A DNA stretch of 20,413 nt, taken from a virus. Below, piece after piece: positions 13,272-20,413 of the stretch. The position numbers and the translations under genes were made by a program. The stretch is from positions 1-20,413 of IMG/VR virus record IMGVR_UViG_3300044732_001203; one strand, written 5' to 3'. Below the pieces are notes generated by a model. That model had not been told where the DNA came from. It searched no databases and saw nothing but the letters and a program-made list of their open reading frames with translations. Each line of letters begins with the position of its first letter. Within the stretch, counting starts at the first letter, position 1.

Positions 13272-13454
13272 TTACTTTATCTCCTTGATCACCTTCACCT
13301 GAATCAGCCGCAACTGATACGTCAGAAATCGTTTCCTGTCGCTCGCCAATTGCTTCTCTGCTTCGGCCTTATCTTTCGACCGAAATGACTCACGCCAGAG
13401 AACATCGGCAGCCCTGCGAAACTCGACAACGTATTCCGGTTTGTTTTCGCTCAT
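13272..13454 (-). CDS. Small basic protein of unknown function
   Basis: 60 residues from ATG 13454, which overlaps the stop of the upstream gene by 4 bases (ATGA). Sequence MSENKPEYVVEFRRAADVLW, then a charged helix RSKDKAEAEKQLASDRKRFL and a final strand LRLIQVKVIKEIK. The strand-helix-strand layout resembles many short phage proteins of unknown role. It ends the replication transcription unit. Confidence 0.6.
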   Translation of the reverse strand: MSENKPEYVVEFRRAADVLWRESFRSKDKAEAEKQLASDRKRFLTYQLRLIQVKVIKEIK

Positions 13455-13849
13455 ACATCCAGCCCCCATGCGTCCGCCAAAGCCTTCAATGTTGCCGCGC
13501 CTAGTTTCACATCGCCTTGCGATGGTGTTCCGTTCCGCTCACGCCTGAGTGACTCACACGCAATGACAATCTTCCCGAGGTCCGGAAATGGATCTGGCCC
13601 ATGAGCAATCTTCAGGATGACCGCGTTGACAATCTTCGGATCGAAAACGCTGAGAGAGGCCAACCACGTTTCTGCCTGATGGCTCGTGAGCTGTACCGTC
13701 GCCTTCGCAGAGCAAAGCCTTTCAAGACTTCCAATCAACCGGCCCGCCTTAGTCGCCGCTGGCAGCAATCGCGGCCCGGATTGAGTTGAAGGCACTTGCG
13801 TTTGCGTTCTCGCGATGCTGTGACGTTGTGAGTCGTTGCGTTCCGCCAT
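13451..13849 (-). CDS. Candidate replicative helicase loader-type protein
   Basis: 132 residues from ATG 13849, which has AGGGG about 8 bases upstream; an ATG two codons earlier sits too close to it. The first 33 codons overlap the end of the replication initiator gene in another frame. The N-terminal part is polar and disordered (DSQRHSIARTQTQVPSTQSG). The rest is helical, and LSVFDPKIVNAVILKIAHGPDPFPDLGKIVIACESLRRER resembles phage helicase-loader or initiation-accessory proteins, where a small helical domain ends in fP..g.i. Position directly after the initiator, as lambda P follows O, supports this. The family call is tentative. Confidence 0.5.
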   Translation of the reverse strand: MAERNDSQRHSIARTQTQVPSTQSGPRLLPAATKAGRLIGSLERLCSAKATVQLTSHQAETWLASLSVFDPKIVNAVILKIAHGPDPFPDLGKIVIACESLRRERNGTPSQGDVKLGAATLKALADAWGLDV

Positions 13850-14540
13850 TCCCATTCCCCTGATGATTTCTCGATTGCCACTGCCTCACTGTTGCCCGCC
13901 AGTCCTTCATCGGGTTGCGACCAACCCGCCATCCGTTTGACTCGTAGTAATCCCAAAAGGCCCGAGCATCGACGGCCGATTGAATCTCAATCACATAGCC
14001 GATAATTTCTTGGACTGTTGGTTTCTGGAATGCCTTGCTGCGATTCTTTGGAGCATTGACCGAAGCCGCATCCTGTTTCACAACAACTGGGACAGTGGAC
14101 GCAATCGCGTCCTGTGTTTCTGTATTACTATTCTTCTCTTCTCTTCTCTTCTCTGGTAACGCTTTTGTAACGCTGTCACCGTTACATTTGCGTTTCACTT
14201 CTCGATGCGTTTCCACCCGTTTCGCTGATAACGCCCGTGTTTTGCATGAGTTGCCGTTGTGGCGGTCAAAATTGCAAAAGTGAATACCACCCGTAGTGAT
14301 GTCGAGCCACCCAACTGATTGCAGTGCGTCCGCGAAACCTGTAACGCAAGAAATGCGATCTAGTAACGCTGATGTAACGCTGGGAGCGTTACCGTCTCGC
14401 GTCTGCTGGTCTGCCCAGATCCAGACCCGCACCAACTTTCCAACAACCGCATCGGGGTCAATTCCGAGCATGTCAGCGATCTGGAACACCTCCGGCTTGT
14501 CTGGAGTCGTGTGTTCAATCTTGATCCATTGCGAGGCCAT
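13749..14540 (-). CDS. Phage replication initiator (lambda O / DnaT-like type)
   Basis: 263 residues. The N-terminal domain (1-110) reads WIKIEHTTPDKPEVFQIADM, then GIDPDAVVGKLVRVWIWADQ, GFADALQSVGWL and FCNFDRHNGNSCKTRALSAKR. This is the winged-helix-type pattern of many phage replication proteins (KPE...GKL.R.W.W, F..F..HNG..AK.RA...KR). A charged linker (about 111-170, with ALPEKRREEKNSNTE) is followed by a C-terminal part VDARAFWDYYESNGWRVGRNPMKDWRATVRQW, also typical and thought to contact the replicative helicase. Two iteron clusters and a pentamer tract lie inside this gene (14134-14392), so initiator and origin may be one unit, as in lambda O. The next gene downstream is a possible loader. 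Confidence 0.8.
   Translation of the reverse strand: MASQWIKIEHTTPDKPEVFQIADMLGIDPDAVVGKLVRVWIWADQQTRDGNAPSVTSALLDRISCVTGFADALQSVGWLDITTGGIHFCNFDRHNGNSCKTRALSAKRVETHREVKRKCNGDSVTKALPEKRREEKNSNTETQDAIASTVPVVVKQDAASVNAPKNRSKAFQKPTVQEIIGYVIEIQSAVDARAFWDYYESNGWRVGRNPMKDWRATVRQWQSRNHQGNGNGGTQRLTTSQHRENANASAFNSIRAAIAASGD
14134..14153. repeat. Tandem pentamer tract (TTCTC x4)
   Basis: Four perfect tandem copies of TTCTC on the plus strand (AAGAG-type purine tract on the coding strand), preceded by AT-rich TATTACTA. It encodes the charged KRREEK linker of the initiator. A gain or loss of one unit would shift the frame. It directly adjoins iteron cluster 1 at 14156, so it may be the strand-opening region of an origin. 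Confidence 0.7.
14156..14185. repeat. Iteron cluster 1 (two direct, one inverted 8-mer, 11-bp spacing)
   Basis: Plus-strand GTAACGCT at 14156-14163 and 14167-14174, then the inverted near-copy ACCGTTAC at 14178-14185. Unit starts are exactly 11 bp apart, one helical turn. The period is not a multiple of three, so it is not a simple protein repeat. Confidence 0.75.
14341..14392. repeat. Iteron cluster 2, same architecture as cluster 1
   Basis: GTAACGCT at 14363-14370 and 14374-14381, then inverted AGCGTTAC at 14385-14392, again 11 bp apart with 3-base spacers. A further near-copy GTAACGCA sits at 14341-14348, two 11-bp turns upstream of the first unit. Its layout copies cluster 1, 207 bp away. 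Confidence 0.75.
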
Positions 14541-17140: not shown

Positions 17141-17385
17141 CCCTGCCCCCTCAATACGCCCCTGCCACCTGGCAACATCCGAGTCGAACACTGACGAATC
17201 TGTGAAGGCCGATGTAGCCCTTTGTTCTGCGGGAGATCTGGCCGTTCCATGCGGATTGCTTCCGCCATCCCGATCGTTGTTTCCGTGCCCCAGATCTCTT
17301 CCACGGATGGATCTCGTGTCATTGGCTTGTGACCTGTCGGAGCGTGTAGCCGTTTTGATTTCTTCCCGGCCTTGCGTCGTGTCAT
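17137..17385 (-). CDS. Small basic protein between csrA and the resolvase
   Basis: 82 residues; ATG overlaps the csrA stop and the gene's stop overlaps the resolvase ATG, each by 4 bases (ATGA). Such double coupling supports a real gene despite the short length. It has a basic N-terminus (MTRRKAGKKSKRLHAPTGHK), then RDPSVEEIWGTETTIGMAEAIRMERPD, and a basic end with GGRGVLRGQG. No fold or family is recognised. Translation is likely tied to csrA. Confidence 0.55.
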   Translation of the reverse strand: MTRRKAGKKSKRLHAPTGHKPMTRDPSVEEIWGTETTIGMAEAIRMERPDLPQNKGLHRPSQIRQCSTRMLPGGRGVLRGQG

Positions 17386-17654
17386 TGCGGTTTCCTCCGC
17401 ATCAGTTCGCCGGGAAGTCGTTCACCAATTCGAATCACTGGCACAAGCGGAGCGATTGGAAACGCCTCTGGATTGAAGCCAGTTTCCCGAATCGCGTCGT
17501 GAATCTCTTTGCGATCAATCCTCACGCTTTTCGATGCTGTGAAGCCGAGCCGTGCGTGGTTAGTTCCAATCGTGTCGACCAGCTTGACCACGATTGTTTC
17601 TTCGCCGACCGTGATAATGATTTCTTCGCTGACTGATCTTCGAAGCACTAGCAT
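17382..17654 (-). CDS. csrA: CsrA-like RNA-binding regulator encoded by phage
   Basis: CsrA dimers bind GGA-containing hairpins in mRNA and alter translation and stability. The first 52 residues align well with the family: MLVLRRSVSEEIIITVGEETIVVKLV (strands 1-2), TNHARLGFTASKSVRIDRKEI (strands 3-5), including Leu4 and Arg48 at the RNA-contact positions equivalent to Leu4 and Arg44 of E. coli. A C-terminal extension (about 55-90, FNPEAFPIAPLVPVIRIGERLPGELMRRKPQ) makes it longer than the usual 60-70 residues. AAAGGA (17666-17661) stands 6 bases before the ATG, so the GGA in its own ribosome site could allow autoregulation. A strong hairpin block precedes it. CsrA genes do occur on other mobile elements. 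Confidence 0.9.
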   Translation of the reverse strand: MLVLRRSVSEEIIITVGEETIVVKLVDTIGTNHARLGFTASKSVRIDRKEIHDAIRETGFNPEAFPIAPLVPVIRIGERLPGELMRRKPQ

Positions 17655-18326: not shown

Positions 18327-18679
18327 TTCCCGTCCTTTGCTTCAAACAACTGCCCGCCATCTCGCTCCGCATCCAGCCGAATGCACAGGTCTTCGTTTCG
18401 CTTAATCTCGTCAGCCCGCTTTCGGAAGTTGTCAAGCTTCTTCGCGTACTGCACAGGATCAACTTTCAGGTCGGAGCAAAACCGACCACAGCAGGCTTCG
18501 GCCAACTCGCTGCTCGTCATTGGTTGCCCGTGTTCGCGGAGGACTTCCAAGCATTGCAGTTGACGGGCTGTCACTGTTGGCTGGATTCGTTCGGCGGCTT
18601 TGTGGCTTGTTACTGGATCGCTGTGGCGGGCGATTGGGGCTGTTGCTTCGGGGATGTCGAAGAGGGTTAGTTGACTCAT
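18323..18679 (-). CDS. HTH-like protein with N-terminal sliding-clamp-type motif
   Basis: 118 residues, coupled by ATGA overlaps on both sides. It begins MSQLTLFDIPE, in which QLTLF (3-7) fits the bacterial beta-clamp-binding pattern QLxLF. HSDPVTSHKAAERI (19-32) is a motif common in phage proteins, followed by a helix-turn-helix-like stretch TARQLQCLEVLREHGQPMTSSELAEACCG (about 37-65). The C-terminus is a charged helix. It could tether a DNA-binding protein to the replication fork. Function otherwise unknown. Confidence 0.6.
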   Translation of the reverse strand: MSQLTLFDIPEATAPIARHSDPVTSHKAAERIQPTVTARQLQCLEVLREHGQPMTSSELAEACCGRFCSDLKVDPVQYAKKLDNFRKRADEIKRNEDLCIRLDAERDGGQLFEAKDGK

Positions 18680-19686
18680 GTTGCGACCTCCTCAAGTTCA
18701 GCGTCATCCATTTCGAACAGTGCTTTCTGCGGGTCTGCCTTTTTTGGCTGGCAAGCTGCTGCGAGATTTTTTACAGCCTGTCTGTAATAACTCGTTTTCA
18801 ATTCGCACCCTACGCCGCGACGACCCTGAATAACTGGTGCATATACTTCTGATCCGACTCCCATGAATGGAGTCAACACAACGTCTCCGGGATTAGTCCA
18901 CATCTGCACGGCCCGTGCGATTACATCCAATTGCAAAGGATGCTGGTGCCGCTCGTCGCCTTCGTCCTTCGACTCCTCGTATGGCAAAACGTTTTCTATC
19001 CTGATGTCATCCCAAAACGACGACGCATAGTGACGCCAGATCCAGTGGCTGTACCGATTCTCAATCTGGTTTCCTTTCCATCCCTTCAGCTTCAACAGTT
19101 CTTTCGGTATTTCACGTTCTCCGTGATACTCAAACAATCCGTTCGGATGAGTGACTGGCTCTGGATTGACTCCGCGTTTTCTGAACGGAATCAGGTAGTC
19201 GGCTGATGCGACATTCGTCAAAGTTGCGTCCTCGCAAATCTGCCGATGTGCCAGTGCTTTGCTCATTGTGCGATTGCGAACAGCAAGTGGTTCTTTCCAA
19301 ATGCAAATTCTTGGAAGCATCTCGAACCCAAGCGACTCATGCAGCCTAATAATGTCGCCCGGAAAATCTGTGTACCCGCAAATGTTGGCCCCTTGCTTTG
19401 GTACATCCATGCAATGCACTGCCGAGATTCGACCGGGCTTCATCGCTCTGTGAATCTGCTTCACAATAAATCCGTAGTGCTCAAAAAACTCGTCGTATGT
19501 TCGTGCGTTAGACAAGTCGCGAACGCTGCTGCTGTAGTTGTATAAACACCCTCCGTTCTCAGTCGCAAACGGCGGCGAGTAAATTGACATGCCGACCGAC
19601 TCGTCTGGTATCGACTGCAGCACTTCGGCTGAATCGCCGTTGTAAATCGCGTACTGATCGCAAATAACTTGATCCATTACAGCCAT
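18676..19686 (-). CDS. DNA methyltransferase (N6-adenine or N4-cytosine, beta-type motif order)
   Basis: 336 residues. The catalytic motif SPPF lies at 37-40 (VGMSIYSPPFA) and the SAM-binding motif TPFMGVGSE at 272-280 in NPGDVVLTPFMGVGSEVYAP, so motif IV precedes motif I. This is the beta-class order and the middle region (about 90-250) would hold target recognition. SPPF leaves the modified base open. The C-terminal tail contains QKALF (320-324), a QxxLF clamp-type motif. No restriction enzyme gene is next to it, so it is probably a solitary phage methyltransferase protecting or marking phage DNA. The start overlaps the helicase stop by 10 bases. Confidence 0.88.
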   Translation of the reverse strand: MAVMDQVICDQYAIYNGDSAEVLQSIPDESVGMSIYSPPFATENGGCLYNYSSSVRDLSNARTYDEFFEHYGFIVKQIHRAMKPGRISAVHCMDVPKQGANICGYTDFPGDIIRLHESLGFEMLPRICIWKEPLAVRNRTMSKALAHRQICEDATLTNVASADYLIPFRKRGVNPEPVTHPNGLFEYHGEREIPKELLKLKGWKGNQIENRYSHWIWRHYASSFWDDIRIENVLPYEESKDEGDERHQHPLQLDVIARAVQMWTNPGDVVLTPFMGVGSEVYAPVIQGRRGVGCELKTSYYRQAVKNLAAACQPKKADPQKALFEMDDAELEEVAT

Positions 19687-20413
19687 GACGGAACCTGCTC
19701 TTTCTCCGGGAAATAATCACTCGACACTAGGTGCATACTGTCCTGCATATGAGCCACGAGACTCTGAAACATTCGCTGCACTTGCTGCTTCTTTCGGTCG
19801 AGGTTCTCAGCGATTTTTCGCTCGCCCTCACTTAACACCATGTCGATTGTTACGGGATTCTTTTGCCCGAAGCGGTAGCATCGCCGCACGACTTGGTAGT
19901 ACTGCTCAAAAGAGTGACTCGGAAAGATCACCTCGTGATTGCAGATTTGAAAGTTGAGTCCCCACGCTCCAATCTTAGGCTTGCATACCAGCCGACGAAC
20001 CTGGCCCTTTGCGAATCCAAGCAGGTATTCTTCCTTCTGCTCATCACTCATTGATCCCTTGACCTGCACGCAATCGTCGAGCATCTTTTCAAGCAGATCA
20101 CATTCAGGATTCAGTTCGCCCCACAACGCCGTAGATCCGTTGTGATTGTTCGCCAGTTCGACAGCCTTTTCGCATCGCTCTTTGATCGTTACGCGGCGTT
20201 CTTCTCGCTCCTCTCGCATATCGTTTGCTGACATTGCGAAAAGATTTCCGGCTCTTGCCTTAGTGCATTCGATGATGTGTGCTCGCTCGGTCAGTGGCGG
20301 AAGAATAAATCGACTATCATCAAACCCGAGGTCAGAAGGTTTTTGAATTGATCTTGCCCACGAGCAAACCCACGACCAAAACGGTTCTTCAGCGTGACCG
20401 CGAAAACGGTATT
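19677..20413 (-). CDS. SNF2-type DNA helicase, C-terminal part (start beyond window)
   Basis: About 244 residues are visible and the frame is open to the right edge. KPKIGAWGLNFQ (motif V type) and SFEQYYQVVRRCYRFGQKNPVTID (motif VI, with RR..R.GQ) identify the second RecA-like domain of an SNF2-family helicase. Upstream of it RGHAEEPFWSWVCSWARSIQKPSDLGFDD matches phage members of this family. A Lys/Glu-rich helix follows motif VI. Its role is probably in phage DNA replication or transcription control; the ATP-binding motifs lie outside the window. It heads the operon seen here. Confidence 0.88.
   Translation of the reverse strand, partial: YRFRGHAEEPFWSWVCSWARSIQKPSDLGFDDSRFILPPLTERAHIIECTKARAGNLFAMSANDMREEREERRVTIKERCEKAVELANNHNGSTALWGELNPECDLLEKMLDDCVQVKGSMSDEQKEEYLLGFAKGQVRRLVCKPKIGAWGLNFQICNHEVIFPSHSFEQYYQVVRRCYRFGQKNPVTIDMVLSEGERKIAENLDRKKQQVQRMFQSLVAHMQDSMHLVSSDYFPEKEQVPSWL

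Follow-up and report, generated by a model that had tools for sequence, protein, structure and literature searches.

In the iteron plasmids RK2, F, P1 and pSC101, the iterons lie outside the rep gene and form direct repeats of approximately 17–22 bp. What they have in common with the locus described here is that the initiator sites are repeated and adjoin an unwinding element (PMC5043065). Closer precedents, in which the iterons are placed within the initiator gene, are provided by phage lambda and Salmonella phage L (PMC3349717, PMC8022706, PMC5043065). As in Stx phages, the lambda origin (oriλ) lies inside gene O; it contains four 18-bp imperfect palindromic iterons (positions 39034–39118) in one array, and next to them an A+T tract in which almost all of the purines fall on the same strand (PMC5043065; lambda sequence). 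The O protein has a DNA-binding N-terminal part and a recruiting C-terminal part; it binds the iterons and also the single strand, and opening requires no more than two iterons and the A+T tract (PMC7466680). In gene 18 of phage L, the 11-bp repeat TGTCCAACGGA is present in six imprecise copies (PMC8022706), and a repeat of this type was also seen in the ST64T sequence. Lambda, P22 and phage L are thus known cases of type-specific iterons inside initiator genes, and phage L also of an 11-bp repeat.

The DNA analyzed in this study (referred to as the window) is a 20.4-kb fragment of a phage genome, the remainder of which may hold an origin of its own, and all whole-window counts given below cover these 20,413 nt. 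It contains a minus-strand gene encoding a predicted replication initiator, within which two clusters of short repeats were identified. These are very probably iterons recognized by the encoded protein and, together with an adjoining purine tract and A+T-rich bases, would constitute a phage origin embedded in its own initiator gene. The features concerned are listed below, the clusters being numbered in the order in which they occur in the gene.

13749–14540, minus strand: replication initiator gene (263 aa), with PHROG matches, containing both iteron clusters
14196–14540, minus strand: segment encoding the N-terminal domain (residues 1–115; predicted fold), the presumed iteron-binding domain
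14341–14392: cluster 1 (codons 50–67), with sites at 14385–14392 (−), 14374–14381 (+), 14363–14370 (+) and 14341–14348 (+, one mismatch)
14156–14196: cluster 2 (linker), with sites at 14189–14196 (−, two mismatches), 14178–14185 (−, one mismatch), 14167–14174 (+) and 14156–14163 (+)
14131–14155, minus (gene) strand: purine tract CAGAGAAGAGAAGAGAAGAGAAGAA, abutting the last iteron of cluster 2; the sole such run in the window
14121–14140: A+T-rich stretch (75% A+T) adjoining the tract, a candidate unwinding element
13752–14063, minus strand: segment encoding the C-terminal part (residue 160 onward), with a conserved FWDYYESNGW..MKDW motif, common to relatives with other N-domains

The initiator protein matched two PHROG families annotated as “replication initiation protein”: PHROG 2509 (E = 2.2e-59; a match of the N-terminal region, residues 1–180 of 263) and PHROG 9474 (E = 3.8e-32). 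On the basis of the profile comparison it is assigned to the PHROG 2509 family. The Pfam search gave nothing above the cut-offs and the NCBIfam search no match. In particular, neither the phage_O_Nterm profile (TIGR01610), which lambda O itself matches at 5e-39, nor the lambda O PHROGs 277 and 2365 were matched; by the profiles tested, the window initiator is not a homolog of lambda O.

AlphaFold2 predicted a confident compact fold for residues 1–115 (pLDDT 85, pTM 0.73), with the order helix-helix-strand-helix-helix-hairpin (helices 16–25, 29–46, 57–64 and 69–75; hairpin 79–88). Foldseek searches with this N-domain returned insignificant matches (best E = 0.39), many of them winged-helix regulators, and the full-length initiator gave no significant match. 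Since the helix order fits but all of the Foldseek matches are insignificant, the N-domain is described here as probably a winged helix. Searching the sequences of solved structures with N- and C-terminal profiles yielded nothing useful. The full model is largely disordered beyond residue 120, and it is this predicted disordered stretch that encodes cluster 2 and the tract. The C-terminal part is presumed to contact the replisome. In relatives from phages TL-2011b and epsilon15 the C-terminal domain, at the corresponding place, matches the DnaT profile NF002770 (7.7e-27 and 3.8e-17, respectively), whereas the window initiator does not and carries another conserved type of C-terminal part. The next gene in relatives encodes a DnaC-like or P-like loader. 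In the window, the helicase-loader position is occupied by an ORF at 13451–13855 (minus strand), which overlaps the initiator gene at its 3′ end and has no family match. The record also contains a gene for a CsrA-like regulator (17382–17654; PF02599, E = 7.8e-11) and, at 18676–20234, a DNA methyltransferase gene beside a short ORF with a match to a helicase in its C-terminal part.

The first-pass annotation of this DNA had described an exact 8-mer, GTAACGCT, at 14156, 14167, 14363 and 14374 on the plus strand and at 14385 on the minus strand, with near-copies at 14178 (inverted) and 14341. All of these positions were confirmed, the near-copies (GTAACGGT on the minus strand and GTAACGCA on the plus strand, respectively) having one mismatch each. 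The design that it attributed to both clusters (site, 3 nt, site, 3 nt, inverted site, in 11-bp phase) was also found in each; the site at 14341, however, departs from it, lying 22 bp from its neighbor. A degenerate site at 14189 (two mismatches) extends the 11-bp phase of cluster 2.

The five exact copies of GTAACGCT are the only ones in the whole record, and all fall within the clusters of the initiator gene. With up to one mismatch, 20 copies are present in the window, compared to 10.3 expected, and none of 100 shuffled sequences reached 20. Overlapping registers of the iteron excepted, no 260-bp stretch of the window contains any other 7-mer four times. A high density of the 8-mer elsewhere, which would have spoken against the origin reading, was absent from the 20.4-kb window; where the 8-mer occurs outside the gene in five complete relatives, it does so as scattered single copies. 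The GC skew is negative throughout the window, with no switch anywhere, including around 14250; because nearly all of the genes lie on one strand, it is uninformative with regard to the origin.

Both clusters of the window gene encode a similar SVTxAL peptide, and in most relatives EKRREEK is the peptide specified by the tract, so the repeated peptides could be what is selected, with the DNA repeats merely following. This reading was examined by synonymous-codon shuffling. In 5000 shuffles that preserved the protein, exact copies of the 8-mer averaged 0.30 (maximum 3), compared to five in the gene. The difference is smaller when one mismatch is permitted (seven in the gene; shuffle mean 2.3, shuffle maximum also 7). 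When the commonest 7-mer of each of 142 non-redundant family genes was compared with synonymous shuffles, it exceeded them at p≤0.01 in 105. Codon choice within the sites was analyzed in 32 genes of the same type in which cluster 1 encodes the peptide NAxSVT: Asn is encoded by AAC, Ser by AGC and Val by GTT in 32 of 32 cases each, whereas in the remainder of these genes the respective codons account for 65%, 26% and 35%.

Other peptides occupy the same places in some relatives (CPDVIGTK in locus L004, SASEADKKR in epsilon15), and the tract remains all-purine even when EEEEEED replaces EKRREEK. The spacing is equally difficult to ascribe to the protein. Across the family, 300 of 458 adjacent site pairs are 11 bp apart (63 are 12 bp apart), whether the sites are direct or inverted, and a spacing of 11 bp is not divisible by three, which bears out the proposal that the period is not derived from codons. 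Protein constraint as the source of the repeats is, on this evidence, extremely improbable; the earlier caveat that it might contribute is answered by the fixed codon choice within the sites and by the switching of site types (see below). The repeats inside the initiator gene exceed chance expectation and are not explained by coding, as looked for in an origin of this kind.

Inverted sites separated by 3 nt may also be read as an mRNA stem with a 3-nt loop that controls translation or transcription, and GTAACGCTnnnAGCGTTAC could indeed form an 8-bp stem. However, the stem in cluster 2 of the window has a mismatch, and further sites are placed directly at 11 bp (111 same-orientation pairs have this spacing in the family). 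Moreover, some related origins consist mainly of direct repeats (the tandem 11-bp repeats in ST64T gene 18; locus L185), and an 11-bp phase is a property of duplex DNA. RNA hairpins as the function of the sites are consequently scarcely credible.

The same architecture was found in phages of Escherichia, Xanthomonas, Pseudomonas and Salmonella as well as in environmental phages. A search of the genome collection gave a single relative, in Roseiconus. The site itself varies: the types include GCGTTAC, GCGGAC, GCGTGAC, CGTCTAC and others, but the spacing is retained. GCGTTAC, the type of the window, is shared with Escherichia phage TL-2011b, the Rac prophage of strain 442/2, Xanthomonas phage CP2, Pseudomonas phage VW-6S and others, in which it occupies the same two places in the gene. 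Epsilon15 and many relatives carry GTCCGCAT/AAGCGGAC sites, and further types, among them AGCGTGAC, GCGTCTAC and ATCGGGAC, were found in other family genes. The 7 bp immediately preceding the tract were compared in 51 distinct origins covering all types; they recur directly 11 bp upstream and in inverted form with the 5′ end 30 bp upstream; other distances and shuffled sequence gave a flat background. The window geometry (site′-3-site-3-site-tract) is identical to this pattern. A loss of iteron spacing in relatives would have counted against the origin reading; instead, the spacing is kept even where the site sequence changes.

The agreement between the two clusters was analyzed by typing each gene on cluster 2 alone and then searching for cluster 1 in the first 285 nt. 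At least two sites of some type were present in this region in 98 of 114 typed genes. In 97 of these 98, the type of cluster 1 was that of cluster 2 (permuted mean 38.5, maximum 54, in 2000 permutations that ignore relatedness). No cluster 1 was detected in the first 285 nt of the remaining 16 of the 114 genes; it is thus common but not universal. In genes of the epsilon15 type (L012, L104–L183), cluster 1 is located at codons 18–35 (gene nt ~50–105) instead of codons 50–67, from which it follows that the match between the clusters accompanies the site type and not the peptide. This second array has moved within the region encoding the DNA-binding domain between types.

On a tree of the N-domain constructed without the cluster 1 codons (48–67), at least 13 changes of site type were counted, compared to a mean of 55 for shuffled labels. 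Site type therefore follows the N-domain, yet has been switched repeatedly. The residues responsible for recognition were also sought in type-specific alignment columns, but the result was uninterpretable, since the closest cross-type pairs are only 55–64% identical and the top columns include site-encoded ones.

The pyrimidine tract and A+T-rich bases noted earlier beside the 14156 cluster were located at about 14131–14155 and 14121–14140, respectively. The pyrimidine run at 14131–14154 is the sole all-pyrimidine/all-purine run of at least 14 bp in the 20.4 kb. In 122 anchored family genes, the strand is 96–99% purine at 5–20 nt past the last site, and mean A+T peaks at 0.78 approximately 25–30 nt past it. 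The encoded peptide varies from EKRREEK to EEEEEED while the strand stays purine. A strand-asymmetric, A+T-containing tract is thus found beside iterons, as in oriλ, and it is likely to be a strand-asymmetric unwinding or loading element.

Viral contigs were scanned for CAGAGAAGAGAAGAGAAGA, which gave at least 120 stretches, with 110 distinct sites among the matches listed. Among these matches, 93 of the 110 distinct exact tract sites fall in ORFs of the initiator family, and several of the remaining 17 are in truncated family members. Of 10 full non-family tract ORFs tested among the matches listed, eight matched PHROG replication categories, as initiators of other types. The tract is also present in initiators lacking the window N-domain (L219, L231, L243, L249, L261, L270, L274, L297 and L301), several of which carry other short repeats ahead of it. 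Its occurrence at these loci suggests an element shared across unrelated initiator families.

These observations bear on the proposal that the sites are operators through which the initiator represses its own synthesis, the origin being elsewhere. The DNA-binding iterons of plasmids are often autoregulatory, the sites in the window lie within a transcribed region, and cluster 1 could well fit such a role. A repressor alone, however, leaves unexplained why the tract is fused to the last site and recurs in initiators that are not homologous, as well as the lambda-like order of iterons, strand-asymmetric tract and A+T-rich bases; we regard this proposal as improbable. The placing of the origin within the initiator gene, as originally put forward, is supported by the comparative evidence of conserved spacing, switching site types and codon choice.

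The co-segregation of N-domain types with iteron types is accompanied by cassette exchange, which was seen in two cases. The flanks of L004 and the window are similar (72–90% identity upstream and 86–100% over most of the downstream part), but the N-domain and both clusters differ (gene nt ~0–390), and similarity resumes at the tract. L004 carries GTCCCGAT sites at the places corresponding to the window clusters. The Rac prophages show the same pattern in a stronger form. The flanks and C-terminal part of ydaU of K-12 (L306, 1720–2577) and 442/2 (L011, 1228–2016) are 80–100% identical, but the K-12 N-domain is DUF1376, unrelated to that of 442/2, and is accompanied by repeats of the kind TGTTCAAAC. 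K-12 Rac ydaU was accordingly rejected as a direct family member, as only its C-terminal part is common with Rac 442/2. In these alignments, the N-domain and both clusters are seen replaced as one cassette between similar flanks. Co-segregation and exchange both favor a DNA-binding domain that would be specific for the iteron type of its own gene.

The putative embedded origin resembles oriλ in its position and in the order of its elements, but it differs in having 8-bp sites in 11-bp phase and two arrays, one of them inside the region encoding the DNA-binding domain. Gene 18 of Salmonella phages L/ST64T and P22 likewise shows different iterons inside distantly related initiator genes; these, however, are tandem direct repeats confined to the linker, without such a purine tract, and the initiators belong to another family (PHROG 345). 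The closest counterparts are the PHROG 2509 initiators of epsilon15, TL-2011b and Rac 442/2, which have a homologous N-domain, two type-matched clusters and the purine tract. TL-2011b and epsilon15 differ from the window in their DnaT-like C-terminal parts, and epsilon15 also in its GTCCGCAT sites and the location of cluster 1 at codons 18–35. No description of the iterons of these three initiators was found in the openly accessible literature searched. As far as the papers covered by this search show, three features are new: the matched arrays, of which one lies within the sequence coding for the DNA-binding domain; the 11-bp geometry, which is fixed across many site types; and the tract signature.

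By analogy with lambda O, we infer the following course of initiation. The N-terminal domain, presumed to be the iteron-binding domain, would bind the 8-bp sites, and those of cluster 2, which face the same side of the DNA because they are spaced by one helical turn (11 bp), would build a nucleoprotein complex beside the purine tract. The duplex would open at the tract, the strand-asymmetric sequence being held single-stranded, and replication would start within the origin, with the C-terminal domain recruiting a helicase loader or helicase. Cluster 1, approximately 200 bp away, would serve as a second array that could raise the local initiator concentration, loop to cluster 2 or damp over-initiation; its role could be in loading, looping, handcuffing or autoregulation.

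A wider and more tentative proposal, which we consider possible though somewhat less probable than not, is that such loci form a large unnamed class of phage origins. Each would be a cassette extending from the gene start to the tract, with iterons set by the N-domain, two matched arrays approximately 200 bp apart that cooperate by looping or handcuffing, and a common tract loader, so that compatibility is swapped. If this is true, the purine tract would be a common loading element even for non-homologous initiators, and phages would change replication compatibility by cassette swap.

The signature described here (8-bp sites in 11-bp phase, ending in a purine tract) finds the likely origins of many temperate phages and prophages from sequence, among them those of the epsilon15 group of Salmonella phages and of the 442/2 Rac prophage. 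Paired N-domains and sites provide a natural data set for a protein-DNA recognition code. In one lambda study, ectopic origin copies are reported to interfere with the phage (PMC4488673), and interference of this kind would reward cassette swaps. The exchanges observed suggest that related phages change their replication type by swapping one short lock-and-key segment.
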